A stretch of 64,000 nucleotides of DNA from Albula goreensis. Its lineage: Eukaryota > Chordata > Actinopteri > Albuliformes > Albulidae. Numbering within the stretch: position 1 is the first letter of the stretch; every line of letters begins with the position of its first letter. The DNA lies in contig CM040744.1 in assembly GCA_022829145.1 (NCBI GenBank), positions 6,917,001 through 6,981,000 of the forward strand. The letters are read 5' to 3'. The notes beneath the pieces were generated by a model. That model was not told the origin of the DNA. It saw only the letters and a program-made list of their open reading frames with translations, and did no database searches. Below, in pieces: positions 1 to 49,171 of the stretch. Made by a program: the position numbers and the translations under genes.

Positions 1-3000
1 TCAGTTGTGAGCTTTCCAACTCATTTTTTGCATTTTCTCCCATGTAATCCATTCCTTGATCCTATTTTCGGGATTCACTATCAGCAGGTACTGTCCAATC
101 ATTTTAAGCAGAAAAATCAAGTATTGTTGGGGGTCCGATTTTTCATACTTTTTTCAGGTCCGCGGGTTTACTTTTTTTTTTTCAGTTGTGAGCTCAACTC
201 ATTCCTTTTTGCGTTTTTCCCATGTAATCCATTCCTTGATCCTATTTTCTTCGTATCCACTATCAGCAGGTACTGTCCAATCATTTTAAGCAGAAAAATC
301 AAGTATTGTTGGGGGTCCGATTTTTCATACTTTTTTCAGGTCCGTGGCTTACGTTTGTTTTTTTCAGTTGTGAGCTCAACTCATTCCTTGCGTTTTCTCC
401 CATTTAATCCATTCCTGGTTCCTATTTTCTTCGTATCATATCAGCAGGTACTGTCCAATCATTTTAAGCAGAAAAATCAAAATTGTTGGGGTCCGATTTT
501 TCACACTTTTTTTCAGATCCGCGGCTTACGTTTTTTTCAGTTGTGAGCTCAACTCATTTTTTGCGTTTTCTCCCATTAAATCCATTCCTGGTTCCTATTT
601 TCTTCGTATCCACTATCAGCAGGTACTGTCCAATCATTTTAAGCAGAAAATCAAGAATTGTTGGGGGTCCGATTTTTCATACTTTTTCAGGTCCGCGGCT
701 TATGTTTTTTTCTGTTGTGGGCTCAACTCATTTTTGCGTTTTCTCCCATTTAATCCATTCCTGGTTCCTATTTTCTTCGTATCCACTATCAGCAGGTACT
801 GTCCAATCATTTTAAGCAGAAAATCAAGAATTGTTGGGGGTCGGATTTTTCATACTTTTTTCAGGTCCGCGGCTTACGTTTTTTTTCAGTTTTGAGCTCA
901 ACTCATTCCTTGCGTTTTCTCCCATTTAATCCATTCCTGGTTCCTATTTTGTTCGTATCCACTATCAGCAGGTACTGTCCAATCATTTTAAGCAGAAAAT
1001 CAAGAATTGTTGGGGGTCCGATTTTTCATAGTTTTTTCAGGTCCGCGGCTTACGTTTTTTTTTTTTCGGTTGTGGTCACAACTCATTTTTTTGCGTTTTC
1101 TCCCATTTAATCCATTCCTGGTTCCTATTTTTTCGTATCCACTATCAGCAGGTACTGTCCAATCATTTTAAGCAGAAAATCAAGAATTGTTGGGGTCCGA
1201 TTTTTCATACATTTTTCAGGTCCGCGTTTACGTTTTTTTCGGTTGTGAGCACAACTCATTCCTTTTGCGTTTTTCTCCCATGTAATCCATTCCTTGATCC
1301 TATTTTCTTCGTATCCACTATCAGCAGGTACTGTCCAATCATTTTAAGCAAAAATCAAGTATTGTTGGGGGTCCGATTTTTCATACTTTTTTCAGGTCCG
1401 CGGCTTAGGTCTTTTTTTTCAGTTGTGGGCACAACTCATTTTGCGTTTTCTCCCATTTAATCCATTCCTTGGTTCCTATTTTCTCCGTATCCACTATCAG
1501 CAAGTACTGTCCAATCATTTTAAGCAGAAAAATCAAGAATTGTTGGGGGTCCGATTTTTCATACATTTTTCAGGTCCGCGGCTTATGTTTTTTTTCAGTT
1601 GTGGGCAACTGATTCCTTTGCGTTTTTCTCCCATTTAATCCATTCCTGATCCTATTTTTCTTCGTATCCACTATCAGCAGGTACTGTCCAATCATTTTAA
1701 GTAGAAAAATCAAGAATTGTTGGGGGTCCGATTTTTCACACTTTTTCAGGTCCGCGGCTTACGTTTTTTGTTGTGAGCTCAACTCATTCCTTTGCGTTTT
1801 CTCCCATTTAATCCATTCCTGTTCCTATTTTCTTCAGATCACTATCAGCAGGTACTGTCCAATCATTTTAAGCAGAAAAATCAAAATTGTTGGGGGTCCG
1901 ATTTTTCATAATTTTTTCAGGTCCGCGGCTTACGTTTTTTTCAGTTTGTGGGCACAACTCATTTTTTGCGTTTTCTCCCATTTAATCCATTCCTGGTTCC
2001 TATTTTCTTTTGTCCTCCACTGTCAGCAGGTACTGTCCAATCATTTTAAGCAGAAAATCAAGTATTGTTGGGGGTCCGATTTTTCATACTTTTTTTTCAG
2101 GTCCGCGTTTACGTTTTTTTCAGTTGTGAGCTCAACTCATTCCTTGCGTTTCCTCCCATGTAATCCAATTCCTGGTTCCTATTTTCTTCGTATCCAATAT
2201 CAGCAAGTACTGTCCAATCATTTTAAGCAGAAAATCAAATATTTTGGGGGTCCGATTTTTCATACTTTTTTCAGGTCCGCGGCTTACGTTTTTTTCAGTT
2301 GTGAGCTCAACTCATTCCTTGCGTTTTCTCCCATGTAATCCATTCCTTGATCCTATTTTCTTCGTATCCACTATCAGCAGGTACTGTCCAATCATTTTAA
2401 GCAGAAAATCAAGAATTGTTGGGGGTCCGATTTTTCATACTTTTTCAGGTCCGCGGCTTACGTTTTTTTTCAGTTGTGGGCACAACTCTTTCCTTGCGTT
2501 TTCTCCCATTTAATCCATTCCTGGTTCCTATTTTTCTTCGATCCAATATCAGCAGGTACTGTCCAATCATTTTAAGCAGAAAAATCAAAATTGTTGGGGG
2601 TCCGATTTTTCATACTTTTTTCAGGTCCGCAGCTTACGTTTTTTCAGTTTGTGGGCACAACTCATTTCTTGCGTTTTCTCCCATTTAATCCATTCCTTGA
2701 TCCTATTTTCTTCAGATCCAGTATCAGCAGGTACTGTCCAATCATTTTAAGCAGAAAAATCAAGAATTGTTGGGGTCCGATTTTTCATACTTTTTCAGGT
2801 CCGCGGCTTACGTTTTTTCAGTTGTGGGCACAACTCATTTTTGCGTTTTCTCCCATTTAATCCATTCCTGGTTCCTATTTTTTCGTATCCACTATCAGCA
2901 GGTACTGTCCAATCATTTTAAGCAGAAAAATCAAAATTGTTGGGGGTCCGATTTTTCATACTTTTTTCAGGTCCGCGGCTTACGCTGGTTTTTCAGTTGT

Positions 3001-6000
3001 GAGCTCAACTCATTCCTTGCGTTTTCTCCCATGTAATCCATTCCTTGATCCTATTTTCTTCGTATCCACTATCAGCAGGTACTGTCCAATCATTTTAAGC
3101 AGAAAATCAAAGAATTGTTGGGGGTCCGATTTTTCATACTTTTTTCAGGTCCGCGGCTTACGCTTTTTTTCAGTTGTGAGCTCAACTCATTCCTTTTTGC
3201 GTTTTCTCCTATGTAATCCATTCCTTGATCCTATTTTCTTCGTATCCACTATCAGCAGGTACTGTCCAATCATTTTAAGCAGAAAATCAAGTATTGTTGG
3301 GGGTCCGATTTTTTCATACTTTTTTCAGGTCCGCGGATTCACTTACGTTTTTCAGTATTGTGAGCTCAACTCATTCCTTGCATTTTCTCCCATGTAATCC
3401 ATTCCTTGATCCTATTTTCTTCAGATCCACTATCAGCAGGTACTGTCCAATCATTTTAAGTGAGAAAATCAAGAATTGTTGGGGGTCCGATTTTTCATAC
3501 TTTTTTCAGGTCCGTGGTTTACGTTTTTTTCACTTGTGGGTACAACTCATTCCTTGCGTTTTCTCATTTAATCCATGTTTTCCAGTATCCAATCCATTTT
3601 TGATCCTAAAAATTGTTAGGGGTCCGATTTTTCACACTTTTTCAGGTCCGCGCGTTTACGTTTTTTTTCAGTTGTGGGTACAACTCATTCCTTTGCATTT
3701 TCTCCCATTTAATCTATTCCTGGTTCCTATTTTTTCAGATCCACTATCAGCAAGTACTGTCCAATCATTTTAAGCAGAAAATCAAAAATTGTTGGGGTCC
3801 GATTTTTTCACACTTTTTCAGGTCCGCTGGCTTACGTTTTTTTTCGGTTGTGGGCACAACTCATTTTTTTGCGTTTTCTCCCATTGTAATCCATTCCTTG
3901 ATCCTATTTTCTTCGTATCCACTATCAGCAGGTACTGTCCAATCATTTTAAGCAGAAAAATGAAGTATTGTTGGGGTCCGATTTTTCATACTTTTTTCAG
4001 GTCCGCGGCTTACGTTTTTTCAGTTGTGAGCTCAACTCATTCTTTGCATTTTTCTCCCATGTAATCCATTCCTTGATCCTATTTTCTTCAGATTCACTAT
4101 CAGCAGGTACTGTCCAATCATTTTAACAGAAAATCAAGAATTGTTGGGGGTCCGATTTTTTCATACTTTTTTCAGGTCCGTGGATTACGTTTTCTCCTAT
4201 TTTTTTTTCACTTTGGAGCACAACTCATTCCTTTGTTTTCTCCTATTTAATCTATTCCTGGTTCCTATTTTCTTCAGATTCAATATCAGTAGGTACTGTC
4301 CAATCATTTTAAGCAGAAAATCAAAATTGTTGGGGTCCGATTTTTCAGCACTTTTTTCAGGTCCGCAGCTTACGTTTTTTTCTAGTTGTGTGAACAACTC
4401 ATTCCTTTTGCGTTTCTCCCATGTAATCCAATTCTGGTTCCTATTATTTTCTTGATCCAATATCATCAGCAAGTACTGTCCAATCATTTTAAGCAGAAAA
4501 ATCAAAAATTGTTGGGGTCCGATTTTCATACTTTTTTCAGGTCCGCGCTTTACGTTTTTTTTCAGTTGAGCTCAACTCATTCTTTGCGTTTTCCCATGTA
4601 ATCCATTCCTTGATCCTATTTTCTTCAGTATTCACTATCAGCAGGTACTGTCCAATCATTTTAAGCAGAAAAATCAAGAATTGTTGGGGTCCGATTTTTC
4701 ATACTTTTTTCAGGTCCGCGTTAATTTTTTCAGATTTGTGAGCTCAACTCATTTCTTGCGTTTTCTCCTATGTAATCCATTCCTTGATCCTATTTTCTTC
4801 AGATCCACTATCAGCAGGTACTGTCCAATCATTTTAAGCAGAAAAATCAAAAATTGTTGGGGGTCCGATTTTCATTTTTTCAGGTCCGCATCTATGTTTT
4901 TTTTCAGTTGTGAGCTCAAGTCATTTTTTTGCGTTTTCTCCAAGTAATCCATTCCTTGATCTCTATTCTTCGTATCCACTATCAGCAGGTACTGTCCAAT
5001 CATTTTAAGCAGAAAATCAAGAATTGTTGGGGGTCCGATTTTTCATACTTTTTTCAGGTCCGCCTCGATTTTTTCACTTGTGTGCACAACTCATTTCTTG
5101 CGTTTTCTCCCATTTAATCCAATCCTGGTTCCTATTTTCTTGTATCCACTGTCAGCAGGTACTGTCCAATCATTTTAAGCAGAAAAATCAAGTATTGTTG
5201 GGGTCCGATTTTTCATACTTTTTTCAGGTCCGCGGCTTACGCTTTTTTTCGGTTGTGCAGAACTCATTTCTTCTGTTTCTCCCATTTAATCCATTCCTTT
5301 GGTTCCTATTTTCTTCGATCCACTATCAGCAGGTACTGTCCAATCATTTTAAGCAGAAAAACTGGCACCATTGTTGGGGTCCGATTTTTTCATACTTTTT
5401 TCAGGTCCGCGTTTACGTTTTGGAGTTGTGAGCTCAACTCATTCCTTGCGTTTTCCCATTTAATCCATTCTGATCCAATTTTCTGTATCCACTATCAGCA
5501 GGTACTGTCCAATCATTTCCAAGTAGAAAATCAAGTATTGTTGGGGGTCTGATTTTTCATACTTTTTTCAGGTCCATGACTTTTTTTTTTCTGTTGTGAG
5601 CTCAACTCATTCCTTGCGTTTTCTCCCATTTAATCCATTCCTGGTTCCTATTTTCTTCGTATCCACTATCAGCAGGTACTGTCAATCATTTTAAGCAGAA
5701 AAATCAAAAAATTGTTGGGGTCCGATTTTTCACTTTTTTTCAGGTCCGCGGTTTACGTTTTCTGTTGTGACAACTCATTCCTTGCATTTTCTCCCATTTA
5801 ATCCATTCCTGGTTCTATTTTCTTCATTATCTAATATCGCAAGTACTGTCCAATCATTTTAAACAGAAAAATCAAAAAAAATTATTTGAGTGGTCCGATT
5901 TTTTCACACTTTTTTCAGGTCCGCGGCTTTACGTTTTTTTCTAGTTGTAGGCACAACTCATTTTTTGCGTTTTCTCCCATTTAATCCATTCCCTGGTTCC

Positions 6001-6230
6001 TATTTTCTTAGTATCCACTATCAGCAGGTACTGTCCAATTATTTTCAGCAGAAAAACTCAAGAATTGTTGCGGGTCGGATTTTTCATACTTTTTTCAGGT
6101 CCGGGGCTTACGTTTTTAGGTTGTAGTACAACTCATTCCTTGCATTTTCTCCCATTTAATCCATTCCTTGATCCTATTTTCTTCGTATCCACTATCAGCA
6201 GGTACTGTCCAATCATTTTAAGCAGAAAAT
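1..6230 (+). repeat. About 176-bp satellite array, forward arm, clean part
   Basis: About 35 head-to-tail monomers of 174-181 bp. Landmarks in each are GTTGTGAGCTCAACTC, CCCATTTAATCCATTCC, CAGCAGGTACTGTCC, TTTTAAGCAGAAAA, TTGTTGGGGGTCCGA and CAGGTCCGCGGCTTACG. Monomers come in sub-types, with CTTGATCC plus CATGTAATCC or CTGGTTCC plus CATTTAATCC. Most differences between copies are homopolymer length changes (T runs of 6-12) and one-base indels. Individual variants match, in reverse order, monomers at 31.1-37.4 kb on the other strand. No protein-coding signal: open frames arise because the monomer is T-rich and poor in stops. Confidence 0.97.
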
Positions 6231-9200
6231 ACATCCATTTTCATTTTCAGCACACATGCTTCAGTTGTGGGCACAATTATATGTTTCTACGACCATTCCT
6301 GTCTCCTATCGTCAGCAGAGTATTGCGTCCAACGCGAAGCAGCAGGGTCAGCATTGTTATCCTGACATACTTTTCAGTAATTTGCGCGTTTTACGCCAGC
6401 TGTGAGCTCAACTGATTTCGCGCTCGTATCTGACTGTTCCCCACGCATTCAATATCAGCAGTTACCGTGAAGGAACAAGCATATTGCAGGGTCCGACACT
6501 TCGTTCGCATTATTGCTTTTTTCATTTGCATTTTGTGTTTTTCTTCCCATTTACCCATCTCTCGATTCCGTTTCGGCAGATTCACTGATCAGCAGGTACT
6601 CGTCCAATCATTTAGCAGAAAAATCATGATATTCGGTCCGTTTTTCACTTTTCATCGCGCCACGCTTTTCAGTTGTGGCACAACCTTATGCTTTCATTTA
6701 ATCTATCTTCTGGTCTTATTTTCAGATCTCAAGACAGTATTATCCAATCATTTTTATAGAAAATAAAAATTCAATAGCCGATGCCACTACTTGAAATCAT
6801 GCCTACGTTTTTCGGCCAGGGCACACCCTCCGTTCCCATGGGTTCATTTGATCTCTATTTTCGTAACCACTATCAGCAGGCTGTCCAATCATTTAAATAG
6901 TAGGTCAGCAATTGCCAGGTCCGAGCCACACTTTTTCAGTTCGCGGGCTACGCGCTGGGCCAGGGCATAACTCATTCTGCGCTTCCATGGTAATCCATTC
7001 TGATCCGGTTTTTCGCATTCACCATCAGCAGGCATGTCCAATCACGAAACAAGAAAAACAAAAATTAAAGCCAGTCCGACGCCACACTTTCAGTCAGTTT
7101 ACGCTGTTGCGGCACAAATTTCATGCTTTTCCATGTACCCATTCCCGATCTCTATTTTCGCATTCACCATTGGCAGGTAATTGTCCACCATTTAAACAGA
7201 AAATCAAGAATTGTTAGGTCCGATTTCTTCATTTTTTAGACCGTCACGCCACTCTGTGGGCACAACCAGCTTCTGCCCCATGCAACCATTTTCCCTGATC
7301 CTAAAATTAGTTAGGTCCGATTTTTCACACCAGTCCACGCCAGTTGCGGTGAAATTAGTTCGCGCTTTTCCCATTTACCTATTTCCGCATTTTCTTCGTA
7401 TCCAATATCGCAGTGACGTCCAACATGGCAGAAAAAGCATTGTTAACCATCATAGTTTTTCAGTCCGCCGCCAACGCTGGCCAGGCACAATCATTTCAGC
7501 GTTTTCCCGATGTAATTCATTCTGATCCTATTTCTTTTCGATTCATTCGTCATCGCACGTCCAACATGGCAGAAAAACAAGAATTGCGCCAGGTCCGATG
7601 CCATTACTTTTCAGTTCATGTTGTCGCTTTTTTTTCAGTTGTGGGCACAATCATTTTAAGTTTCCCCATTTAATTCATTTCAACGAGCGCGCCCACTGTC
7701 AGTGAGAGGTTGAACCAATCATTTTTGTTAAAAATCAGCTATTGTTAAACTGATTTTCACAGGTTCAGAGCCAATTTGTTTCGCGCTTCATGAATTGTTC
7801 TTCGTCTTCCACGCCAGATTCAATATCAAAGTTGTTGCTGTCCAATCATTTTGGCGGAGAAAAATCGCGATGTTAACCGATGCCATGAGACGCAGCCTGC
7901 CGCTTCGCTTCAGCCAGGTTCAACCGCTTCCGCGCTTCCCATAATTCACCTGGTTCCCATTTTTCTTCGATCCGCTCATCAGTGTAGTGGAGTTTTCAGC
8001 AGAACCAAGAACTGGTGCCGCGGTCGGATTTTTCATACTTTTCGTAATACCACGCGCCGGCTGGGCTAATAACTCTCATTCCTCGCGTTTTCTGATGGGA
8101 TCCATTCTCGATCCTATTTTCTTTTTGCATTCACATCAGTATAGTACGTCCAATCATTTTTAAGAGAAAAACAAGTATTGTTAAAAACCGACCATACTTA
8201 GAATCAGAGCTTCGACAGTTTTTTCAGCTTGTGAGCCCACCGCTCCCGCGCTTTCCTCCTGTCCATCTCCCCGATCTCATGCTCTTCGTGACCACATCAG
8301 CAGAGACAAGTCTTGGCGAAGAGAAAAACAAGTATTACTTAGTCCGGATTTTTCATACTTTTTTGTGTGTCCGCGCTACGCTTTTTTCGTGTCAGAGCTC
8401 AACTCATTTTCTCCCATTTCATCTATTTCGGTTCTATTTTCAGATTCACTCACAGCAGGTATTTCGTTCAATCATTTTAAGCAGAAATCGCTATTCAGCC
8501 AGGTCCGATTTTTCATACTTTTCGGTCATCATGGCTTCTCTCAATGCTTTTTCAATAGGCACACTCATTTTGCGTTATCTCTCTCCGTTCCTATTTTCAC
8601 CTTCTGTCAGCAGGCATCGTCCAACATAAGCAGAAATCGCAGCCAGTTGCAGTCCGATTTTCATACTTTTCAGTTCCACTGGCCACGCCAGTTGTGAGCT
8701 TCAACTCATACCTTTGCTGCTTTCCCATGTAATCCGCTTCCTGATTCATTTTCTTCGTATCCACATCAACAGGTTCGTCCAACATACAGAAAATCAAGAA
8801 TTGTTAAACCGATTTTTCATAGTTTTTTTCAGTCTGCCACGCTTTCAGGTTAATACCGTTTCCCATTTGATTTGTCTGTCTCCATTCATCATCAAGTAGT
8901 AATGCTCAATATTTCAAAGAAAATTGTTAGAACCATGCCACATCTGCCAGGTCCGCTGCTTATAAAAGTGCTCAAGCCAGGCAGATAACTATTCCTCTTG
9001 TATTCCATTCATTCACATTTGAGCAGCACGTCCAATCATGCTTACAGAAATCGCGGCCTGTCAGGCCCCATTTTCGCATTCAACCATATTTACGCTTCGG
9101 TTACAGGCACAACTGCATTTCGTATTTCCCACGTAACTAATTCTGTTCTATTTTCGTATCCAATATCAGAAGTATTCGTCCAATCATTTTAGCAGAAAAC

Positions 9201-12200
9201 TGTAAATTATTGTGGTCCGATTTCATACTTTTCACCGGCGTTTTCACGCTTTTTCAGCGAGTTCATCTCTCGTTTATTATTTGTCTTTTCAGGACCATTA
9301 TCAGCAGGCACGTCCATTTTAGCAGAAAAATCGCCGACCAAACCATGCTTTTTCACGCCCACAAGCCATTTTCAGTTGTGGGCACAACTGTTTTGCGTTT
9401 TTCCCACCCATTCTCCGACTCCCGCCACCACTGTCAGCAGGTACGTCCAATCATTTGTACTGGCGCATTGCTGATCTCGATTCTTTCATAAGCTTATCCG
9501 CCGCTTTTCAGTTGTTGTTCAATTTATTTCTTCGCGCTTTTTCCGCGAATTCACTTCTGGCTCATTTTCTGACACTCATCAGCATCGCCAGAAAATCAGC
9601 GACAGCCACACATCTGGCTCGGCGGCCACGCCGTTGCGGAACACCGCGCTTTCTCCATTTGATCCTCGCCAGATTTTCAGCAGGTATCCAATCATTTTAG
9701 CGAGAAAATCGGTCCGGACATACTTGTCAGCGCTTATGCCAGTTGCAGCTCAACTGTCTCGCGCTTTCCTATTTACCCATTTCGTCCCTATTTTCAGACT
9801 CCATTGGCAGAGCTGTCCAATCACGAAAGAAAATCAAAATAAAGGTCCGATAGGTTACAGCACAATGCTGGTTGTGTGCACAACTCATTTCATGCCCTTC
9901 CTGATCCTATTGCATAGTACGTCCAATGAGCAGAAAATCAAAGTCGGCTGCCAGGGTCCGATTTTCATACTTTTTTCGCAAGTCTCAAGCGGGTCACGCT
10001 TTTTTATGTTGCGAGCTCAACTTCATTTCGAAAGCTCATTTAATTCATATCTTGATCTCATTTTCTTTATCCACTATTTAGTAGTACAACTAGTCATTTT
10101 ACAGAAACCGCATATTAAACTGATTTTCATACTTTTTTCAGTTCATGCTTACGCTTGTTGTGACAATCATTTCGCGTTTTTCTCCCATTTACCATTTTCC
10201 GTCTTCTTGATTCACATCGTTGGCATTGTCCAATCATTTAGCAAAAATCGTGCCGTTAAGAAACGACACACTGGTTACGCTGGTTAGGACGCGAAGCTTC
10301 CTTATGTAATTCATTTCGATCTCTTTCAGATACTTTTCAGGTATTGTCCAATTTAGCAGAAAAATCGTAAGAGCCAGGTCCGTTATTTTCAATACATTGA
10401 CGCTTTTCAGCTGCGGAGCCTCAACATTTCGCGTTTTCCATCTGATTCTCGGCTTATTTTTCAGATTCATCCATCAGCAGGCATTGTCCAATCATTTGAA
10501 GAGAAAATCACATTATGCCGGATTTTCACAATTTTTCAGGTCCGCGCGCTCGATGCTGGAGCCAGGCAGACAACCTTCTCATGCTTTTCTCATGTATTTT
10601 TTCCCAAGATTATTTCTTGCTTGATGTTTTCAGTTGTGGGCACAATCATTTGCGTTTTCCACTTGATCTGATCTTTGCCTTTTATTGTCTTCTGTCAGCA
10701 GGTATTGTCCACCGATATAGAAACAGATAGGTCCGACATTAGAACATACACGCTTTTTTTTTTTTTTTTTGTATACACCATTTATAGAAGTTTTCCCATT
10801 TACTTGTTCCTTATTTTCATATTCATCAGCAGTACTTGTCCAACGTTTTTCGCAGAAAATCGTAATCGTTAGAACCGATGCACATTTTCAGGTCGCGCCA
10901 TGCCGCCGCCAGGCATACTACCTTCAGATGCCTCCCATGTGCGGTCCAATTAACTTATTTTTCGTATTCAACAGAGTATTGTCCAATCATTTTTAGCAGA
11001 AAATCAAAATTATTAGTCCGATTTTCATGTTTCTTTTTTCATGTCCTGTTTACGCTTTTATGTTGTAGAGGTCAACTGCCTCGAGCGCTTTCTCCCATTT
11101 GAATCTATTCTGATCCTGTTTTTCAGACTACTATTTGCAGACAAGTCTGTTGATTTTTATGATGTTGATTCCGATTTTCACATTGTTGCTGCTTACGCTT
11201 TTCAGTTGCGTTCAACTCATGCCGCACCATGGTCCATCTGATCCTGTTTCGCCAGACCACTATCAGCAGTAGGCCGTCCAATCAGGCGAGAAAAATCAGC
11301 AAATTGCTGTAGGTCCGATTATCCTCGATGCTTCAGTTGCAGCTCAACCTTCACTTCATGGGCTTCCTATTTACCCATCTTCGTTCCTACGCATTCACTA
11401 TCAGCAAGTAGCCGTCCAACCATTTTTAGCAGAAAAAATGTACCACAGGTCCGATGCCACATCTTTTCAGGTCACACGCGGCCAGTGCACAACTCTCATT
11501 TCGCGTAAGCCTGAGGTATTCCGCCGCCAGATTCATCAGCAGGAGCCGTCGACTATTTTAAGCAGAAAATCGTCATTGTTAAATCGATTTTTCATACTTT
11601 TTTTCAAAGGCGCCGCTTTTTTTTTATGTTGTATTAACTCATTTCGCGCTTTTCTCCCATTTTAATTCATTCTTGATTCCCATTTTCTTTTCAGATTCAC
11701 TATTTGTCGTCCAAATATTTAAGTAGAAAATCAGCATTGTTGTAGGTCCGATTTTCATATTTATTCCTTCATTACGCTTGTTGTGAGCTCAACTTGCCTC
11801 CTTGCGCTTTCCTCCTCATTTAACGATTCTCAATTTTACGCCAGATTCACATCAGCAAGTACGTCCAGCAAAATCAAAAGTCAGGAGGTCCGAGCCATTC
11901 ACGACATGCCGGGACCCCGCCATGCTTTCCCACGTATCCATTTGATCCCATTTTCGCATCCATTGTTGCGGCCGTCCAATCATTTGCAAACAAAATTGCG
12001 GTCCGATTTTCGTTTCTTTTCAGTAAGTCCACGATGCTTTTCAGTTGTGATCAACACATTTTCGTGCTTTTCTCCTTCATTTGATCCATTTTCGTTCCTA
12101 TTTTCGCATTCACTATCAGCAGCATTGTCCAATCATGTAGTAGAAAATCAAGAATAAGGTGTCGATTATTACTTCAGGCGTCACGGCCACGCTTCGTTAG

Positions 12201-17417: not shown

Positions 17418-17421
17418 CTCA
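17414..17421. other. Centre of inversion between the two satellite arms
   Basis: The satellite changes strand here with no spacer. The centre is the 8-bp palindrome TGAGCTCA that belongs to the normal monomer. Forward monomer sequence ends in CTTCAGTTGAGCTC and reverse monomer sequence starts GAGCTCACAACCG. Confidence 0.85.
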
Positions 17422-23400: not shown

Positions 23401-26400
23401 AAAAAACGAAGTCCGCGGACCTGAAAAAAGTATGAAAAATCGGACCCCCAATAATTTTTGATTTTTCTGCTTAAAATGATTGGACAGTACTTCCTGATAT
23501 TGGATACGAAGAAAATAGTAACCAGGAATGGATTAAATGGGAGAAAACGCAAGGAATCAGTTGTGCCCACAACCGAAAAAAACGTAAGCCGCGGACTTGA
23601 AAAAACTATGAAAAATCAGACCCCCAAATATATTTGATTTCGCTGCTTAAAATGATTGGACAGTACCTGCTGATAGTGGATACGAAGAAAATAGTATCAA
23701 AGAATGGATTACATGGAAGAAAACGCAAGGAATGAGTTGTGCACACAACCGAAAAAAACGTAAGCCGCGGACCTGAAAAAAGTATGAAAAATCCGACACC
23801 CAACAATTCTTGATTTTTCTGCTAAAAATGATTGGACAGTACTTGCTGATAGTGGATACGAAGAAAATAGGAACCAGGAATGGATTAAATAGGAGAAAAC
23901 GCAAGGAATGTGTTGAGCTCACAACTGAAAAAAACGTAAGCCACGGACCTGAAAAAAGTATGAAAAATCGGACCACCAACAATTTTTGATTTTTCTGCTA
24001 AAAATGATTGGACAGTACCTGCTGAAAGTGGATACGAAGAAAATAGGATCAAAGAATGGATTACATGGGAGAAAACGCAAGGAAGGAGTTGTTCCCACAA
24101 CCGAAAAAAACGTAACCCGCGGACCTGAAAAAAGTGTGAAAAATCGGACCACCAACAACTTTTGATTTTTTTGCTTAAAATGATTGGACAGTACTTGCTG
24201 ATATTAGATACGAAGAAAATAGGAACCAGGAATGGATTAAATGGGAGAAAACGCAAGGAATGAGTTGAGCTCACAACAGAAAAAAACGTAAGTCATGGAC
24301 CTGAAAAAGTATGAAAATCGACCCCAACAATACTTGATTTTTCTACTTAAATGACTGGACAGTACCTGCAAATAGTGGATACTAAGAAAATAGGATCAAG
24401 GAATGGATTAAATGGGAGAAAACGCAAGGAATGAGTTGAGCTCACAACATAAAAAAACGTGAAGTCATGGGACCTGAAAAAGTATGAAAATCGGACCCCA
24501 ACAATATTTGATTTTTCTGCTTAAATGATTGGACAGTACCTGCTGATAGTGGATACGAAGAAAATAGGATCAAGGAATGGATTACATGGGAGAAAAACGC
24601 AAGGAATGAGTTGTGCACACAACCGAAAAAACGTATGCCGCTGGACCTGAAAAAAGTGTGAAAATCGGACCCCAACAATTTTTGATTTTTCTGCTAAAAA
24701 TGATTGGACAGTACTTGCTGATAGTGGATACGAAGAAAATAGGAACCAGGAATGGATTAAATAGGAGAAAACGCATGAAGGAATGAGTTGAGCTCACAAC
24801 TGAAAAAACGTAAGTCAGCGGACCTGAAAAAAGTATGAAAAATCGGACCCCCAACAATTCTTGATTTTTCTGCTTAAAATGATTGGACAGTACCTGCTGA
24901 TAGTGGATACGAAGAAAATAGGATCAAGGAATGGATTACATGGGAGAAAATGCACGGAATGAGTTGAGCTCACAACTGAAAAAACGTAAGTCAAACGGAC
25001 CTGAAAAAAGTATGAAAAATCGGACCCCCAACAATACTTTGATTTTTCTACTTAAAATGACTGGACAGTACCTGCAAATAGTGGATACGAAGAAAATAGG
25101 ATCAAGGAATGGATTAAATGGAGAAAACGCAAGGAATGAGTTGAGCTCACAACATAAAAAAACGTAAGCCGCGGACCTGAAAAAAGTATGAAAAATCGGA
25201 CCCCCAATAATTTTTGATTTTTCTGCTTAAAATGATTGGACAGTACTTCCTGATATTGGATACGAAGAAAATAGGAACCAGAATTGGATTACATGGGAGA
25301 AAATGCAAGGAATGAGTTGTGCACACAACCGAAAAAAACGTAAGCCGCGGACCTGAAAAAAGTGTGAAAAATCGGACCCCTAACAATTTTTGATTTTTCT
25401 GCTGAAAATGATTGGACAGTACTTGCTGATATTGGATATGAAGAAAATAGGAACCAGGAATAGATTAAATGGGAGAAAACGCAAGGAATGAGTTGTGCCC
25501 ACAAGTGAAAAAACGTGAAGCCGCGGACCTAAAAAGTATGAAAATCGACCCCCAACAATACTTGATTTTTCTGCTTAAAATGATTGGACAGTACCTGCTG
25601 ACAGAGGAGACGAAGAAAATAGGAACCAGGAATGGATTAAATTGGAGAAAACGCAAAAATGAGTTGTGCCCACAACTGAAAAAAACGTAAGCCTGAAAGA
25701 AGTATGAAAATCCTACTTGGGAGAAAAAATACATGGGAGAAAACGCAAGGAATGAGTGTGCACACAACCAAAAAAACGTAAGCCGGACCTGAAAAAGTAT
25801 GAAAATCCGACACCCAACAATTCTTGATTTTTCTGCTAAAAATGATTGGACAGTACTTGCTGATAGTGGATACGAAGAAAATAGGAACCAGGAATGGATT
25901 AAATAGAGAAAACGCAAGGAATGTGTTGAGCTCACAACTGAAAAAACGTAAGCCACGGACCTGAAAAAGTATGAAAAATCGGACCACCAACAATTTTTGA
26001 TTTTTCTGCTAAAAATGATTGGACAGTACCTGCTGAAAGTGGATTAAGAAAATAGGATCAAAGAATGGATTACATGGGAGAAAACGCAAGGAAGGAGTTG
26101 TTCCCACAAATCAAAAAAACGTAACCCGCGGACCTGAAAAAGTGTGAAAATCGACCACCAACAACTTTTGATTTTTTTGCTTAAAATGATTGGACAGTAC
26201 TTGCTGATATTAGATACGAAGAAAATAGGAACCAGGAATGGATTAAATGGGAGAAAACGCAAGGAATGAGTTGAGCTCACAACAGAAAAAACGTAAGCCG
26301 CTGGACCTGAAAAAAGTATGAAAAATCGGACCCCAACAATACTTGATTTTTCTACTTAAAATGACTGGACAGTACCTGCAAATAGTGGATACGAAGAAAA

Positions 26401-29400
26401 TAGGATCAAGGAATGGATTAAATGGGAGAAAACGCAAGGAATGAGTTGAGCTCACAACATAAAAAAACGTAAGCCGCGGACCTGAAAAAGTATGAAAATC
26501 GGACCCCCAACAATATTTGATTTTTCTGCTTAAAATGATTGGACAGTACCTGCTGATAGTGGATACGAAGAAAATAGGATCAAGGAATGGATTACATGGG
26601 AGAAAACGCAAGGAATGAGTTGTGCACACAACCGAAAAAACGATGCCGCTGGACCTGAAAAAAGTGTGAAAAAATCGGACCCCAACAATTTTTGATTTTT
26701 CTGCTAAAAATGATTGGACAGTACTTGCTGATAGTGGATACGAAGAAAATAGGAACCAGGAATGGATTAAATAGGAGAAAACGCAAGGAATGAGTTGAGC
26801 TCACAACTGAAAAAACGTAGCCGCGGACCTGAAAAAGTATGAAAAATCGACCACCAACAAATTTTGATTTTTCTGCTAAAAATGATTGGACAGTACCTGC
26901 TGAAAGTGGATACGAAGAAAATAGGATCAAAGAATGGATTAAATGGGAGAAAACGCAAGGAAGGAGTTGTTCCCACAACCGAAAAAACGTAAGCCATGGA
27001 CCTGAAAAAGTGTGAAAATCGACCCCAACAATACTTGATTTTTCTGCTTAAAATGATTGGACAGTACCTGCTGATAGTGGATACGAAGAAAATAGGAACC
27101 AGAATTGGATTACTTGGGAGAAAACGCAAGGAATGAGTTGAGCTAACAACTGAAAAAAAACCCCGGACCTGAAAAAACTATGAAAAATCGGATCCCCAAC
27201 AATACTTGATTTTTCTGCTTAAAATGATTGGACAGTACCTGCTGACAGTGGAGAGAAGAAAATAGGAACCAGGAATGGATTAAATGGGAGAAAACGCAAA
27301 ACTGAGTTGTGCCCACAACTGAAAAAAATGTAAGCCACGGACCTGAAAAAGCATGAAAAATCGGACCCCCAACAATTCTTTTTTTTTTCTGCTTAAATGA
27401 TTGGACAGTACCTGCTGATAGTGGATACGAAGAAAATAGGAACCAGGAATGGATTAAATGGGAGAAAACGCAAGGAATGAGTTGAGCTCACAACTGAAAA
27501 AACGTAAGCCGCGGACCTGAAAAAAGTATGAAAAATCGGACCCCCAATAATTTTTGATTTTTCTGCTTAAAATGATTGGACAGTACTTCCTGATATTGGA
27601 TACGAAGAAAATAGGAACCAGAATTGGATTACATGGGAGAAAATGCAAGGAATGAGTTGTGCACACAACCGAAAAAAACGTAAGCCACGGACCTGAAAAA
27701 AGTATGAAAAATCGGACCCCAACAATTTTTGATTTTTCTGCTTAAAATGATTGACAGTACTTGCTGATATTGGATACGAAGAAAATAGGAACCAGAATTG
27801 GATTACATGGGAGAAAATGCAAGGAATGAGTTGTGCACAACAAAAAAAAAAATGGACCTGAAAAAAGTGTGAAAAATCGGACCTAACAATTTTTGATTTT
27901 TCTGCTGAAAATGATTGGACAGTACTTGCTGATATTGGATATGAAGAAAATAGGAACCAGGAATAGATTAAATGGGAGAAAACGGAAGGAATGAGTTGTG
28001 CCCACAAGTGAAAAAAACGTAAGCCACGGACCTGAAAAAGTATGAAAAATCGGACCCCCAACAATACTTGATTTTTCTGCTTAAAATGATTGGACAGTAC
28101 CTGTTAATAGTGGATACGAAGAAAATAGGATCAAGGAATGGATTACATGGGAGAAAACGCAAGGAATGAGTTGAGCTCACAACTGAAAAAAAACGAAGTC
28201 GCGGACCTGAAAAAGTATGAAAAAATCGGACCCCAACAATACTTGATTTTTCTGCTTAAAATGATTGGACAGTACCTGCTGACAGAGGAGACGAAGAAAA
28301 TAGGAACCAGGAATGGATTAAATGGGAGAAAACGCAAAAATGAGTTGTGCCCACAACTGAAAAAACGTAAGCCGCGGACCAAAAAAGTATGAAAAAATCG
28401 GACCCCAACAATTTTGATTTTTCTGCTTAAAATGATTGGACAGTACCTGCTGATAGTGGATACGAAGAAAATAGGAACCAGGAATGGATTAAATGGGAGA
28501 AAACGCAAGGAATGAGTTGAGCCCACAACCGAAAAAACGTAAGTCGCGGACCTGAAAAAAGTATGAAAAATCGGACCCCGAACAATACTTGATTTTTCTG
28601 CTTAAAATGATTGGACAGTACCTGCTGATAGTGGATACGAAGAACATAGGATCAAGGAATGGATTAAATGGGAGAAAACGCAAGGAATGAGTTGAGCTCA
28701 CAACTGAAAAAAACGTAAGTCGGACCTGAAAAAAGTATGAAAAATCGGACCCCAACAATACTTGATTTTTCTGCTTAAAATGATTGGACAGTACCTGCTG
28801 ATAGTGGATACGAAGAAAATAGGATCAAGGAATGGATTACATGGGAGAAAACGCAAGGAATGAGTTGTGCCCACAACCGAAAAAAACGTAAGCCCCGGAC
28901 CTGAAAAAAGTATGAAAAATCCGCCCGCAACAATTCTTGAGTTTTCTGCTGAAAATAATTGGACAGTACCTGCTGATAGTGGATACGAAGAAAATAGGAA
29001 CCAGGAATGGATTACATGGGAGAAAACGCAAGGAATGAGTTGAGCTCACAACTGAAAAAAACGAAAGCCGCGGACCTGAAAAAAGTATGAAAAATCGGAC
29101 CCCCAACAATACTTGATTTTTCTCCTTAAAATGATTGGACAGTAACTGCTGATATTGGATACGAAGAAAATAGGAACCAGAATTGGATTACATGGGAGAA
29201 AACGCAAGGAATGAGTTGAGCTCACAGACCTGAAAAAAAGTATGAAAATCGGACCCCCAACAATACTTGATTTTTCTGCTTAAAATGATTGGACAGTACC
29301 TGCTGACAGTGGAGACGAAGAAAATAGGAACAAGGAATGGATTAAATGGGAGAAAACGCAAAAATGAGTTGTGCCACAACTGAAAAAAAAACGTAAGTCG

Positions 29401-32400
29401 CTGGACCTGAAAAAAGTATGAAAATCGGACCCCCAACAATTCTTGATTTTTCTGCTTAAAATGATTGGACAGTACTTGTTGACAGTGGATACGAAGAAAA
29501 TAGGATCAAGGAATGGATTACATGGGAGAAAACGCAAGAAATGAGTTGTGCACACAACCGAAAAAAACGTTAACAGCGGACCTGAAAAAAGTATGAGAAA
29601 TCGGACCCCCAACAATTCTTGATTTTTCTGCTTAAAATGATTGGACAGTACTTGCTGATATTGATACAAAGAAAATAGGAACCAGGAATAGATTAAATGG
29701 GAGAAAACGCAAGGAATGAGTTTTGCCCACAACTGAAAAAAACGTAAGCCGCGGACCTGAAAAAGTGTGAAAAATCGGACCCCTAACAATTTTTAGGATC
29801 AAGGAATGGATTACATGGGAGAAAACGCAAGAAATGAGTTGTGCCCACAAGTGAAAAAAACGTAAGCCACGGACCTGAAAAAAGTATGAAAAATCGGACC
29901 CCCAACAATTCTTGATTTTTCTGTTTAAAATGATTGGACAGTACCTGCTGATAGTGGATACGAAGAAAATAGGATCAAGGAATGGATTACATGGGAGAAA
30001 ACGCAAGGAATGAGTTGTGCCCACAACCGAAAAAAACGTAAGCCGCGGACCTGAAAAAAGTGTGAAAAATCGGACCCCCAACAATTTTTGATTTTTCTGT
30101 TTAAAATGATTGGACAGTACCTGCTGATAGTGGATACGAAGAAAATAGGATCAAGGAATGGATTACATGGGAGAAAACGCAAGGAATGAGTTGTGCCCAC
30201 AACCGAAAAAAACGTAAGCCGCGGACCTGAAAAAGTGTGAAAATCGGACCCCAACAATTCTTGATTTTTCTGTTTAAATGATTGGACAGTACCTGCTGAT
30301 AGTGGATACGAAGAAAATAGGATCAAGGAATGGATTACATGGGAGAAAACGCAAGGAATGAGTTGTGCCCACAACCGAAAAAAACGTAAGCCGCGGACCT
30401 GAAAAAAGTGTGAAAAATCGGACCCCCAACAATTTTTGATTTTTCTGCTTAAAATGATTGGACAGTACTTGCTGATATTGGATACGAAGAAAATAGGAAC
30501 CAGGAATAGATTAAATGGGAGAAAACGCAAGGAATGAGTTGTGCCCACAACTGAAAAAAACGTAAGCCGCGGACCTGAAAAAAGTATGAAAAATCGGACC
30601 CCGAACAATACTTGATTTTTCTGCTTAAAATGATTGGACAGTACCTGCTGATAGTGGATACGAAGAACATAGGATCAAGGAATGGATTAAATGGGAGAAA
30701 ACGCAAGGAATGAATTGAGCTCACAAGTGAAAAAAACGTAAGCCGCGAACCTGAAAAAAGTATGAAAATCGGACCCCAACAATACTTGATTTTTCTCCTT
30801 AAAATGATTGGACAGTAACTGCTGATATTGGATACGAAGAAAATAGGAACCAGAATTGGATTACATGGGAGAAAACGCAAGGAATCAGTTGAGCTCACAA
30901 CTGAAAAAAACGTAAGCCGCGGACCTGAAAAAAGTATGAAAAATCGGACCCCCAACAATACTTGATTTTTCTGCTTAAAACGATTGGACAGTACCTGCTG
31001 ACAGTGGAGACGAAGAAAATAGGAACAAGGAATGGATTAAATGGGAGAAAACGCAAAAATGAGTTGTGCCCACAACTGAAAAAACGTAAGTCATGCGGAC
31101 CTGAAAAATGTATGAAAATCGGACCCCCAACAATTCTTGATTTTTCTGCTTAAAATGATTGGACAGTACCTGCTGATAGTGGATACGAAGAAAATAGGAT
31201 CAAGGAATGGATTAAATGGGAGAAAACACAAGAATGAGTTGTGCCCACAACCGAAAAAACGTAAGCCCCGGACCTGAAAAAGTATGAAAAATCCGACCCG
31301 CAACAATTCTTGAGTTTTCTGCTGAAAATAATTTGACAGTACCTGCTGATAGTGGATACGAAGAAAATAGGAACCAGGAATGGATTAAATGGGAGAAAAC
31401 GCAAAAATGAGTTGTGCCCACAACTGAAAAAACGTAAGAAGCTGGACCTGAAAAAGTGTGAAAATCGACCACCAACAATTTTTGATTTTTCTGCTTAAAA
31501 TGATTGGACAGTACTTGCTGATATTAGATACGAAGAAAATAGGAACCAGGAATGGATTAAATGGGAGAAAATGCAAGGAATGAGTTGAGCTCACAACAGA
31601 AAAAACGTAAACCGCGGACCTGAAAAAAGTGTGAAAAATCGGACCCCCAACAATACTTGATTTTTCTGCTTAAAATGATTGGACAGTACCTGCTGATAGT
31701 GGATACGAAGAAAATAGGAACCAGGAATGGATTAAATGGGAGAAAACGCAAGGAATGAGTTGAGCTCACAACAGAAAAAAACGTAAGCCGCGGACCTGAA
31801 AAAAGTATGAAAAATCAGACCCCCAACAATACTTGATTTTTCTACTTAAAATGATTGGACAGTACCTGCTGATAGTGGAGACGAAGAAAATTGGATCAAG
31901 GAATGGATTAAATGGGAGAAAACGCAAGGAATGAGTTGAGCTCACAACCCAAAAAAACGTAAGCCGCGGACCTGAAAAAAGTATGAAAAATCGGACCCCC
32001 AACAATACTTGATTTTTCTGCTTAAAATGATTGGACAGTACCTGCTGATAGTGGATACGAAGAAAATAGGAACCAGGAATGGATTAAATGGGAGAAAACA
32101 GAAGAAATGAGTTCTGCACACAACCGAAAAAAACGTAAGCCGCGGACCTGAAAAAAGTATGAAAAATCGGACACCCAACAATACTTGATTTTTCTACTTA
32201 AAATGATTGTACAGTACCTGCTGACAGTGGATACGAAGAAAATAGGAACCAGGATTGGATTAAATGGGAGAAAACGCAAGAAATGAGTTGTGCACACAAG
32301 TGAAAAAAAAAACGAGGCCGCGGACCTGAAAAAAGTATGAAAATCGGACCCCCAACAATTCTTGATTTTTCTGCTTAAAATGATTGGACAGTACCTGCTG

Positions 32401-35400
32401 ATAGTGGATACGAAGAAAATAGGATCAAGGAATGGATTACTTGGGAGAAAACGCAAAAAATGACTTGAGCTCACAACTGAAAAAAAACGTAAGCCGCGGA
32501 CCTGAAAAAAGAATGAAAAATCGACCCCAACAATACTTGATTTTTCTGCTTAAAATGATTGGACAGTACCTGCTGATAGTGGATACGAAGAAAATAGGAA
32601 TCAAGGAATGGATTACATGGGAGAAAACGCAAGAAATGAGTTGTGCACACAACTGAAAAAAAACGTAACCGCGGACCTGAAAAAGTATGAGAAATCGGAC
32701 CCCAACAATTCTTGATTTTTCTGCTTAAAATGATTGGACAGTACCTGCTGATAGTGGATACGAAGAAAATAGGATCAAGGAATGGATTACATGGGAGAAA
32801 ACGCAAGGAATGAGTTGAGCTCACAACTGAAAAAACGTAAGCCGCGGACCTGAAAAAGTGTGAAAATCGGACCCCCAACAATTTTTGATTTTTCTGCTTA
32901 AAATGATTGGACAGTACTTGCTGATATTGATACGAAGAAAATAGGAACCAGAATTGGATTAAATGGGAGAAAACGCAAAAGGAATGAGTTGTTCACACAA
33001 CCGAAAAAACGTAAGCCGCGGACCTGAAAAAAAGTGAAAAATCGGACCCTAACAATTTTTGATTTTTCTGCTTAAAATGATTGGACAGTACTTGCTGATA
33101 TTGGATACGAAGAAAATAGGAACCAGGAATAGATTAAATAGGAGAAAACGCAAGGAATGAGTTGTGCCCACAAGTGAAAAAAACGTAATCCACGGACCTG
33201 AAAAAAGTATGAAAAATCGGACCCCCAACAATTCTTGATTTTTCTGTTTAAAATGATTGGACAGTACCTGCTGATAGTGGATACGAAGAAAATAGGATCA
33301 AGGAATGGATTACATGGGAGAAAATGCAAGGAATGAGTTGAGCTCACAACTGAAAAAACGTAAGTCGCGGACCTGAAAAAAGTATGAAAAATCGGACCCC
33401 CAACAATACTTGATTTTTCTGCTTAAAATGATTGGACAGTACCTGCTGATAGTGGATACGAAGAAAATAGGATCAAGGAATGGATTACATGGGAGAAAAC
33501 GCAAGGAATGAGTTGTGCACACAACCGAAAAAAACGTAAGCCGCGGACCTGAAAAAAGTGTGAAAAATCGGACCCCCAACAATTTTGATTTTTCTGCTTA
33601 AAATGATTGGACAGTACTTGCTGATATTGGATACGAAGAAAATAGGAACCAGGAATAGATTAAATGGGAGAAAACGCAAGGAATGAGTTGTGCCCACAAC
33701 CGAAAAAAACGTAAGCCGCGGACCTGAAAAAAGTGTGAAAAATCGGACCCTAACAATTTTTAGGCTTAAGGAATGGATTACATGGGAGAAAATAGGATCA
33801 AGGAATGAGTTGTGCCCACAAGTGCACACAAAAAAACGTAAGCCACGGACCTGAAAAAAAGTATGAAAATCGGACCCCAACAATTCTTGATTTTTCTGTT
33901 TAAAATGATTGGACAGTACCTGCTGATAGTGGATACGAAGAAAATAGGATCAAGGAATGGATTACATGGGAGAAAATGCAAGGAATGAGTTGAGCTCACA
34001 ACTGAAAAAAACGTAAGCCGCGGACCTGAAAAAGTATGAAAAATCGGACCCCAACAATACTTGATTTTTCTGCTTAAAATGATTGGACAGTACCTGCTGA
34101 TAGTGGATACGAAGAAAATAGGATCAAGGAATGGATTACATGGGAGAAAACGCAAGAAATGAGTTGAGCTCACAACTGAAAAAACGTAACCGCGGACCTG
34201 AAAAAGTATGAAAAATCGACCCCCAGCAATATTTGATTTTTCTGCTTAAAATGATTGGACAGTACCTGCTGATAGTGGATACGAAGAAAATAGGATCAAG
34301 GAATGGATTACATGGGAGAAAACGCAAGGAATGAGTTGAGCTCACAACCGAAAAACACGAAAGCCGCGGACATGAAAAAAGTGTGAAAAATCGGACCCCC
34401 AACAATTTTTGATTTTTCTGCTTAAAATGATTGGACAGTACTTGCTGATATTGGATACGAAGAAAATAGGAACCAGGAATAGATTAAATGGGAGAAAACG
34501 CAAGGAATGAGTTGTGCCCACAAGTGAAAAAACGAGGCCGCGGACCTGAAAAAAAGTATGAAAAATCGGACCCCAACAATTCTTGATTTTTCTGCTTAAA
34601 ATGATTGGACAGTACCTGCTGATACTGGATACGAAGAAAATAGGATCAAGGAATGGATTACATGGGAGAAAACGCAAGAAATGAGTTGTGCACACAACCG
34701 AAAAAAAACGTAAGCCGCGGACCTGAAAAAAGTGTGAAAAATCGGACCCCCAACAATTTTTGATTTTTCTGCTTAAAATGATTGGACAGTACTTGCTGAT
34801 ATTGGATACGAAGAAAATAGGAACCAGGAATAGATTAAATGGGAGAAAACGCAAGGAAAGAGTTGTGCCCACAAGTGAAAAAAACGAGACGCGGACCTGA
34901 AAAAGTATGAAAAATCGGACCCCCAACAATTCTTGATTTTTCTGCTTAAAATGATTGGACAGTACCTGCTGATAGTGGATACGAAGAAAATAGGATCAAG
35001 GAATGGATTACATGGGAGAAAACGCAAGGAATGAGTTGAGCTCACAACTGAAAAAAACGTAAGCCGCGGACCTGAAAAAAGTATGAAAAATCCGACCCCC
35101 AGAAATATTTGATTTTTCTGCTTAAAATGATTGGACAGTACTTGCTGATATTGGATACGAAGAAAATAGGAACCAGAATTGGATTACATGGGAGGAAAAC
35201 GCAAGGAATGAGTTGAGCTCACAACTGAAAAAAACGTAAGCCGCGGACCTGAAAAAAGTATGAAAAATCGGACCCCCAACAATACTTGATTTTTCTGCTT
35301 AAAATGATTGGACAGTACCTGCTGACAGTGGAGACGAAGAAAATAGGAACCAGGAATGGATTAAATGGGAGAAAACGCAAAAAATGAGTTGTGCCCACAA

Positions 35401-38400
35401 CTGAAAAAAACGTAAGCCGCAGACCTGAAAAAATTGTGAAAAATCGGACCCCCAACAATTTTTGATTTTTCTGCTAAAAATGATTGGACAGTACTTGCTG
35501 ATATTAGATACGAAGAAAATAGGAACCAGGAATGGATTAAATGGGAGAAAACGCAAGGAATGAGTTGAGGTCACAACCGAAAAAAACGTAAGGCGCGGAC
35601 CTGAAAAAAGTGTGAAAAATCGGACCCCCAACAATTCTTGATTTTTCTACTTAAAATGATTGGACAGTACCTGCTGATAGTGGAGACGAAGAAAATTGGA
35701 TCAAGGAATGGATTAAATGGGAGAAAACGCAAGGAATCAGTTGTGCCCACAACCGAAAAAACATAAGCCGCGGACCTGAAAAATGTCTGAACAATCCGAC
35801 CCCCAACAATTCTTGATTTTTCTGCTTAAAATGATTGGACAGTACTTGCTGATAGTGGATACGGAGAAAATAGGAACCAGGAATGGATTAAATGGGAGAA
35901 AACGCAAAAAATGAGTTGTGCCCACAACTGAAAAAAAACCTAAGCCGCGGACCTGAAAAAAGTATGAAAAATCGGACCCCCAACAATACTTGATTTTTTG
36001 CTTAAAATGATTGGACAGTACCTGCTGATAGTGGATACGAAGAAAATAGGATCAAGGAATGGATTACATGGGAGAAAACGCAAGGAATGAGTTGTGCCCA
36101 CAACCGAAAAAAACATAAGCCGCGGACCTGAAAAATGTCTGTAAAATCCGACCCCCAACAATTCTTGATTTTTCTGCTTAAAATGATTGGACAGTAGTTG
36201 CTGATAGTGGATACTGAAGAAAATAGGAACCAGGAATGGATTAGATGGGAGAAAACGCAAGGAATGAGTTGTGACCACAACCGAAAAAAACGTAAGCCGT
36301 GGACCAGAAAAAACTATGAAAAATCGGACCCCCAACAATTCTTGATTTTTCTGCTTAAAATGATTGTACAGTACCTGCTGACAGTGGATACGAAGAAAAT
36401 AGGAACCAGGAATGGATTAAATGGGAGAAAACGCAAGGAATGAGTTGAGCTCAAAACTGAAAAAAAACGTAAGCCGCGGACCTGAAAAAAGTATGAAAAA
36501 TCCGACCCCAAACAATTCTTGATTTTTCTGCTTAAAATGATTGTACAGTACCTGCTGACAGTTGATACGGAGAAAATAGGAACCAGGAATGGATTAAATG
36601 GGAGAAAACGCAAAAAATGAGTTGTGCCCACAACAGAAAAAAACATAAGCCTCGGACCTGAAAAAAGTATGAAAAATCGGACCCCCAACAATTCTTGATT
36701 TTTCTGCTTAAAATGATTGGACAGTACTTGCTGATAGTGGATACGAAGAAAATAGGAACCAGGAATGTATTTAATGGGAGAAAACGCAAGGAATGAGTTG
36801 AGCTCACAACCGAAAAAAACGTAAGCCGCGGATCTGAAAAAAGTGTGAAAAATCGGACCCCTTACAATTTTTGATTTTTCTGCTTAAAATGATTGGACAG
36901 TACTTGCTGATATTGCATACGAAGAAAATAGGAACCAGGAATAGATTAAATAGGAGAAAACGCAAGGAATGAGTTGAGCTCATAACTGAAAAACACGTAA
37001 GCCGCGGACCTGAAAAAAGTATGAAAAATCGGACCCCCACCAATACTTGATTTTTCTGCTTAAAATGATTGGACAGTACCTGCTGATAGTGGATACGAAG
37101 AAAATAGGATCAAGGAATGGATTACATGGGAGAAAACGCAAGGAATGAGTTGAGCTCACAACTGAAAAAACGTAAGCCGCGGACCTGAAAAAGTGTGAAA
37201 AATCGGACCCCCAGCAATACTTGATTTTTCTGCTTAAAATGATTGGACAGTACTTGCTGATAGTGGATACGAAGAAAATAGGATCAAGGAATGGATTACA
37301 TGGGAGAAAACGCAAGGAATGAGTTGTGCACACAACCGAAAAAATGTAAGCCGCGGACCTGAAAAAAGTCTGAAAAATCGGACCCCCAACAATTCTTGAT
37401 ATTTCTGCTTAAAATGATTGGACAGTACTTGCTGATATTGGATACGAAGAAAATAGGAACCAAGAATGGATTAAATGGGAGAGAAAACAGAAGGAATCAG
37501 TTGAGCCCACAAACGAAAAAAAACGTAAGCCGCGGACCTGAAAAATGTCTGAAAAATCCGACCCCCAACAATTCTTGATTTTTCTGCTTAAAATGATTGG
37601 ACAGTACCTGCTGACAGTGGATACAAAGAAAATGGGAACCAGGAATGGATTAAATGGGAGAAAACGCAAGGAATGAGTTGTGCCCACAACTGAAAAAAAC
37701 GTAAGCCGCGGACCTGAAAAAAGGATGAAAAATCGGACCCCCAACAATTTTTGATTTTTCTGCTTAAAATGATTGGACAGTACTTGCTGATATTGGATAC
37801 GAAGAAAATAGGAACCAGGAATGGATTAAATGGGAGAAAACGCAAGGAATGAGTTGAGCTCATAACTGAAAAACACGTAAGCCGCGGACCTGAAAAAAGT
37901 ATGAAAAATCGGACCCCCAACAATACTTGATTTTTCTGCTTAAAATGATTGGACAGTACCTGCTGACAGTGGATACGAAGAAAATAGGAACAAGGAATGG
38001 ATTAAATGGGAGAAAACGCAAAAAATGAGTTGTGCCCACAACTGAAAAAAACGTAAGCCGCGGACCTGAAAAAAGTATGAAAAATCGGACCCCCAACAAT
38101 TCTTGATTTTTCTACTTAAAATGATTGGACAGTACCTGCTGATAGTGGAGACGAAGAAAATTGGATCAAGGAATGGATTAAATGGGAGAAAACGCAAGGA
38201 ATCAGTTGTGCACACAACCGAAAAAAACGTAAGCCGCGGACCTGAAAAAAAAGTGTGAAAAATCGGAACCCCAACAATACTTGATTATTTTTCTGCTTAA
38301 AATGATTGGACAGTACTTGCTGATAGTGGATACGGAGAAAATAGGAACCAGGAATGGATTAAATGGGAGAAAACGCAAAAAATGAGTTGTGCCCACAACT

Positions 38401-44719: not shown

Positions 44720-44725
<6 letters not shown>

Positions 44726-44770
<45 letters not shown>
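44726..44770. repeat. (AC)n microsatellite
   Basis: About 22 uninterrupted AC dinucleotides, preceded by a short TA run. Confidence 0.98.
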
Positions 44771-44771
<1 letters not shown>

Positions 44772-49165: not shown

Positions 49166-49171
49166 TTTAAT
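49166..49171 (-). terminator. Candidate poly(A) signal for lifr
   Basis: ATTAAA on the minus strand, about 190 bp past the stop codon. It is the nearest common signal variant I found. AATAAA occurs only further away (around 47.9 kb on this strand). Confidence 0.3.

Follow-up and report, generated by a model that had tools for sequence, protein, structure and literature searches.

Introduction

When a nanopore reads across the junction of an inverted duplicate, accuracy and bases are lost and recover after roughly the length that preceded the junction, an effect that Spealman et al. ascribe to re-pairing of the strand behind the pore (PMC7229812). Fold-back artefacts make up about 0.55–0.6% of the Oxford Nanopore Technologies (ONT) genomic reads described by Heinz et al., and their origin is thought to be library preparation (PMC12870357). 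Inverted arrangements are also described from satellite DNA itself, and the macro-dyad symmetries of Tribolium satellites span tens of kilobases (PMC13081366). Here we analyse a 64,000-nucleotide stretch of the Albula goreensis genome (the window; C4:6,917,001–6,981,000, sequence CM040744.1 of the 932-Mb, 208-sequence assembly GCA_022829145.1), in which a 176-bp satellite array switches strand and forms two mirror-image arms. We conclude that this mirror probably derives from a DNA molecule that folded back on itself and was read once by nanopore, the read being retained as a contig end in an unresolved satellite array.

The locus is like the inverted duplications of Spealman et al. in that wrong and missed bases start at the inversion point and occupy a bounded length; unlike them, reads of known rearrangements, it consists of assembled sequence alone (PMC7229812). 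As in the fold-back reads of Heinz et al., which are known from nanopore genomic libraries, the second half maps back onto the first in opposite orientation with hardly any intervening sequence; here, however, it has been incorporated into a chromosome scaffold and is known from the assembly alone (PMC12870357). The artificial palindromes of whole-genome amplification that Pacasus addresses also join template and complement in one long read, but there is no sign of amplified DNA here (PMC6218980). The Tribolium macro-dyads share with this array satellite subarrays in opposite orientation, whereas inversion sites are described as highly conserved there (PMC13081366); the two switches seen here (17,411 and about −22,950) have junction sequences that look different on inspection by eye, and one of the two is mirrored.

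The two arms of the array are mirror images

The 176-bp satellite array, already under way at the window start, lies on the minus strand up to about 17,415 and on the plus strand from there to its end near 40.1 kb. Positions are those of the window, negative values lying to its left. The parts of the array are as follows.

1 to 3,004 (really from −1,282), minus strand: outer left arm, mirror of about 34,340–38,660, looks normal
3,005 to 6,229, minus strand: middle left arm, mirror of about 31,141–34,340, with more insertions and deletions than 1–3,004
6,230 to 17,417, minus strand: degraded left arm, mirror of about 17,568–31,141, about 65% identity
17,411 to 17,425, no strand: fold point, AGTTG-AGCTCA-CAAC, where the orientation flips with essentially no spacer
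17,418 to 17,626, plus strand: noisy start of the right arm, about 200 b, with noise not seen by eye in the left arm
17,627 to 40,073, plus strand: right arm, likely the true sequence; satellite of 176-bp monomers that joins the flank on the LIFR side without a break

The left arm (1–17,417) repeats the right arm in reverse complement, with the monomers in the same order: its full alignment against the reverse complement of 17,418–44,000 gave a single continuous anti-diagonal. In a register test, each one-kb left segment was fitted separately to all registers of 17,418–40,100, and all 17 segments of 1–17,000 were placed best within 60 b of this anti-diagonal. Both of the further segments covering −1,282 to 700 were also best at the mirror, with smaller margins. 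When the left segments were also scored against four neighbouring array contigs, one of them split at a strand switch, the right-arm mirror was best or equal for 18 of 19; the exception was segment −282 to 717 (856 at the mirror, 861 in another contig), and the final 700-b segment gave a tie. At the mirror, the stretch 1–3,400 has an identity of 0.934 and shares 59.5% of the right-arm variants, compared with 0.871–0.905 and 20–33% at the 14 shifted registers tried (2 to 14 monomers in both directions), all of which were worse. For the leftmost array contig, a consistent mirror register on the right arm was not found among 11 one-kb segments: the gap between best and second score was 0–5 in ten of them and 27 in one, at the array edge.

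These results bear out the initial annotation, which had described the arms as mirror images monomer by monomer, with rare variants recurring in reverse order. The seven pairs that it listed hold to within about 12 b. The pair 514–524 and 36,826–36,836 is exact; the computed partners are 33,757–33,773 for 3,597–3,612, 33,122–33,193 for 4,180–4,262, 32,099–32,117 for 5,257–5,275, 31,266–31,305 for 6,066–6,106, 29,791 for 7,305 and 25,725 for 10,600. Some details needed revision. Four of the six quoted variant strings searched occur once per arm, but two have extra right-arm copies (CTCCTATTTAATCTATTCC at 36,938; CAGGTCCGGGGC at 21,096 and 28,892). The paired coordinates do have near-constant sums (about 37,340–37,390) in 1–6,000, but beyond this the sums drift to 34,985 because the left arm is short of bases. 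The arms had been given as ending at 1 and 37,370; the mirror in fact reaches the contig end at −1,282, whose partner is about 38,660.

At the fold, the opposite-strand segment begins within 200 bp of the first, the arms adjoining at 17,411–17,425. We considered hairpin priming via the motif AGTTG-N6-CAAC, which lies at the fold but is only weakly suggestive: the motif has 98 copies and 4.9% of array positions lie within 5 b of the centre of one, and shuffling a monomer does not worsen its folding (z 0.38; 139 of the 200 shuffled sequences fold at least as well).

Accuracy is lost abruptly and on one arm

Identity of the left arm to its mirror, in 500-b bins, is 89–96% over 1–6,000 and 59–72% over 6,001–17,417. 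The best single change point falls at base 6,229, with 0.075 errors per base outside and 0.431 inside. Relative to the mirror, 18–25% of bases are missing from 6,230–17,200, 3.5–5.8% are extra and 8.5–9.9% are substituted, so that the degraded zone holds 11,188 called bases for about 13.6–13.7 kb of mirror; no read start is visible. From the fold to the contig end, the assembled tail amounts to 18.7 kb of called bases. The right arm, by comparison, matches the satellite consensus at 0.80–0.96 throughout 17,418–39,917, in bins of 500 b.

A profile of the array in 500-b steps gave the same picture. Three bin runs within 6,001–17,500 average 0.34–0.42 per base, and the remaining bin runs average 0.82–0.92, the two array edges excepted; comparable degradation was seen nowhere else in the array as sampled, from −73.4 to +40.1 kb. 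Apart from the noise in the roughly 200 b ahead of the fold, accuracy is lost at the junction, on one side and with missed bases, as in nanopore failure on inverted duplicates, and from its sequence the stretch 6,230–17,417 looks like an uncorrected low-accuracy nanopore read. The arms are not near-identical throughout, as those of a large palindrome would be, although base-calling noise could mask such identity.

Most changes in the degraded zone are noise

We then compared the changes with the alleles of the satellite. In the degraded zone, 180 of 1,143 private changes (15.7%) match known satellite alleles, against 16.0% for random substitutions. Four consecutive degraded segments keep 87, 85, 83 and 80% of the right-arm variants, and simulated noisy copies keep 90% when no variant is lost, 84% when 10% are lost and 80% when 20% are lost; insertions in the simulated noise were about 2%, below the real stretch (3.5–5.8%). 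A wrong-register control, made for the first of the four segments only, kept 54–68% in six wrong registers. By comparison with these simulations, the inner arms would differ in some 0–10% of variants in 6,230–12,000; close to the fold, where the right arm too is of lower quality, the difference would reach at most about 20%. The degraded zone is thus mostly noise upon a near-exact copy: evolution could not change a third of all positions on one arm and leave the other unchanged. A real degenerate satellite on the left was rejected on the grounds of the abrupt boundary, the random changes and the kept variants.

The zones outside 6,229 behave differently from each other. The middle zone (3,005–6,229) keeps 82% of the right-arm variants and the outer zone (1–3,004) keeps 56%, a step at 3,004/3,005 that none of 500 shuffles reached. 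In 1–3,120, 62 of 143 variants are lost, 60 of the 62 being replaced by the satellite consensus base, and 41 of the 76 left-private changes in 1–6,229 are known satellite alleles. In our reading, either stray satellite reads corrected the outer zone or it represents another haplotype.

Two other analyses of the changes were set aside. The transition/transversion ratio did not separate noise from evolution: it was 1.40 between the arms over 1–6,229, 1.25 at 6,230–17,200, and 0.75 and 0.72 in two stretches of the right arm compared with the consensus. That one read forms a symmetric block, reaching from about 3.1 kb to about 34.2 kb, had been suggested by change points at 34,240, 3,005 and 3,311 (counted without indel runs of at least 8 b, six of which lie on the right arm); this idea was dropped because the right-arm change point shifts to 35,200 with a shorter stretch and to 29,800 with one deletion monomer masked.

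The array beyond the window and its flanks

In the 100 kb upstream of window position 1, the array extends leftward to about −73.4 kb, in five pieces. Between them lie 500-N runs, beginning at −61,902, −44,133, −21,183 and −1,782, which we take to be assembly gaps. The contig that bears the fold starts at −1,282, beside one of these gaps. The leftmost and rightmost array contigs, beside the two flanks, are opposite in orientation, so that, provided the scaffold is correct, the array probably contains true strand switches, and we consider real ones likely.

A second within-contig strand switch lies at about −22,950 on the same chromosome sequence. There, none of four segments found its expected place in the mirror test (z 1.2–2.2). 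On C9, where the satellite was profiled only, it occupies a single strand with one 500-N run.

To the right, the array is followed by a gene flank.

44,375 to 64,000, minus strand: right flank, carrying exons of a gene like that of the leukemia inhibitory factor receptor (LIFR); its start was set by eye where the last satellite-like pieces end

Among nine frames scanned, LIFR_D2 at 60,205–60,408 scored above its curated cut-off, and LIF-R_Ig-like (57,813–58,391) and fn3 (51,859–52,167) were under theirs. One suspected exon had no match in PDB at E 0.001. Looking left of position 1, where the initial annotation had advised that a continuing palindrome should show more mirror and then an inverted lifr copy, we found that the mirror continues for 1.28 kb to the 500-N gap and did not find the inverted copy; because the contig stops inside the array, a mirrored gene could not appear on it. 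Fourteen exon-like frames gave no match at E 0.001 in −99,999 to −73,000, where all 11 right-flank DNA matches are in direct orientation. Comparison of 40,001–64,000 with −59,999 to 0 did not reveal an inverted flank, the 40 longest matches all being satellite-like pieces, and the stretch between the compared regions (−73,000 to −59,999) is satellite. The mirrored tail ends within the array, so these negative results say little about a palindrome confined to it. For 46,300–47,800, the sole full-length match among the 40 candidates scored, out of 1,437, was the sequence itself.

Several repeats were observed around the array. The segment 46,980–47,800 is a dispersed repeat, with partial copies of 70–93% identity listed on many chromosomes. 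At the left edge of the array, about 500 b (−73,829 to −73,327) are 87% identical, in direct orientation, to 45,001–45,513 past the right edge, with smaller matches also to 44,365–44,969; this similarity at both edges is either a direct duplication or a repeat. About 115 b at 40,535–40,650 recur near-identically at 43,486–43,600, near the ends of a 3-kb non-satellite insert that has satellite pieces on either side, and by eye are perhaps the ends of a mobile element. A 30/60-bp tandem repeat at 49,378–49,716 overlaps an open frame of 260 amino acids (49,359–50,141, minus strand) that has no Pfam match at E 0.001.

Discussion

A one-sided, deletion-rich loss past an inversion point is the signature published for nanopore reading of self-complementary molecules (PMC7229812). 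A fold-back read is favoured: most likely, the contig ends in a single nanopore read of such a molecule that the assembly retained. Such a read would have travelled leftward along the right arm with normal accuracy, passed over the fold at about 17,415 and continued on the complementary strand. The strands would then have re-paired behind the pore, so that the strand was pulled too fast and 6,230–17,417 lost about one fifth to one quarter of its bases. Further out, accuracy would have come back, other satellite reads could align, and the sequence may have been pulled toward the array consensus. The nanopore platform, the single read, the origin of the fold in library or pore and the correction by other reads are what we infer from the pattern. 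A PacBio missed-adapter read is thought unlikely, given the error profiles of the platforms, as the errors are deletion-rich. Of the two readings offered by the initial annotation, a real palindrome or a fold-back read, the error pattern thus favours the second, and the very large palindrome has gained no support.

Several observations weigh against the fold-back read. The noise sets in about 200 b before the fold, and accuracy returns at 6,229, about 7.5 kb short of the contig end. The differences between the outer tail (1–3,004) and its mirror are largely genuine satellite alleles, so that correction by stray reads or another haplotype has to be invoked. If the tail is all one read, the second arm, which reaches mirror position 38,660, is longer than a first arm begun near 31,140; equal arms are expected of self-priming or of a closed fragment end, whereas those of a sheared real palindrome may be unequal. 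This inequality would also be explained by a broken partner strand, or by another read taking over at 6,229. Finally, in the eight fold-back or chimeric complementary DNA (cDNA) reads that Heinz et al. describe, the signal showed no notable difference at the breakpoint, meaning that artefact reads do not always lose accuracy (PMC12870357).

The best-surviving alternative is a real and very recent palindrome with its centre at 17,417, either germline or confined to some cells, and formed by fold-back of a broken or stalled array strand; the low quality of its left arm would come from the same pore effect, with one crossing read only. We regard it as unlikely, though worth keeping in mind. It was on real inverted duplications that the pore effect was first reported (PMC7229812), recovery after about the first-arm length fits a molecule sheared at unequal distances (a read start at 31,141 would put 13.7 kb ahead of the fold, against 11.2 kb called past it), and the opposite outer contigs make true switches probable if the scaffold is right. 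On the other hand, the clean reverse-direction reading of the left arm expected of a homozygous palindrome was not found, nor was an inverted flank in the compared left stretches, though the mirror ends inside the array, and the divergence of the arms is uneven (by simulation about 0–10% of variants lost in 6,230–12,000, against 44% in 1–3,004). That the molecule was real, a new palindrome of at least 2 × 13.7 kb in the satellite array folded at the short inverted monomer repeat, seems to us rather improbable.

An old genomic palindrome with a decayed left arm and an intact right arm would account for the mirror itself, but the decay is confined to one arm with its boundary at a single base, the private changes hit satellite alleles no more than chance would, and right-arm variants survive almost as well as in a newly made noisy copy, so that we give it very little credence. 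Two independent opposite-strand arrays, alike by chance or through shared higher-order repeats, are refuted by the register tests despite monomers about 90% alike and the unmirrored second switch nearby, since 17 of 17 segments pick the mirror, 14 of 14 shifts share 20–33% of variants against 59.5%, and other contigs lack a consistent register; their probability is close to nil.

The giant palindrome is thus most likely not a real feature of the animal. The marks found here, namely mirrored variant order, an abrupt-edged, one-sided and deletion-rich stretch, private changes that are not allelic, and a nearby contig end, provide a way to spot a likely fold-back read in a finished assembly without the raw reads. 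Such tails could pass for the satellite palindromes and strand switches now reported from long-read assemblies (e.g. PMC13081366). Should the palindromic molecule prove true, it would be a satellite strand inversion caught in the act.

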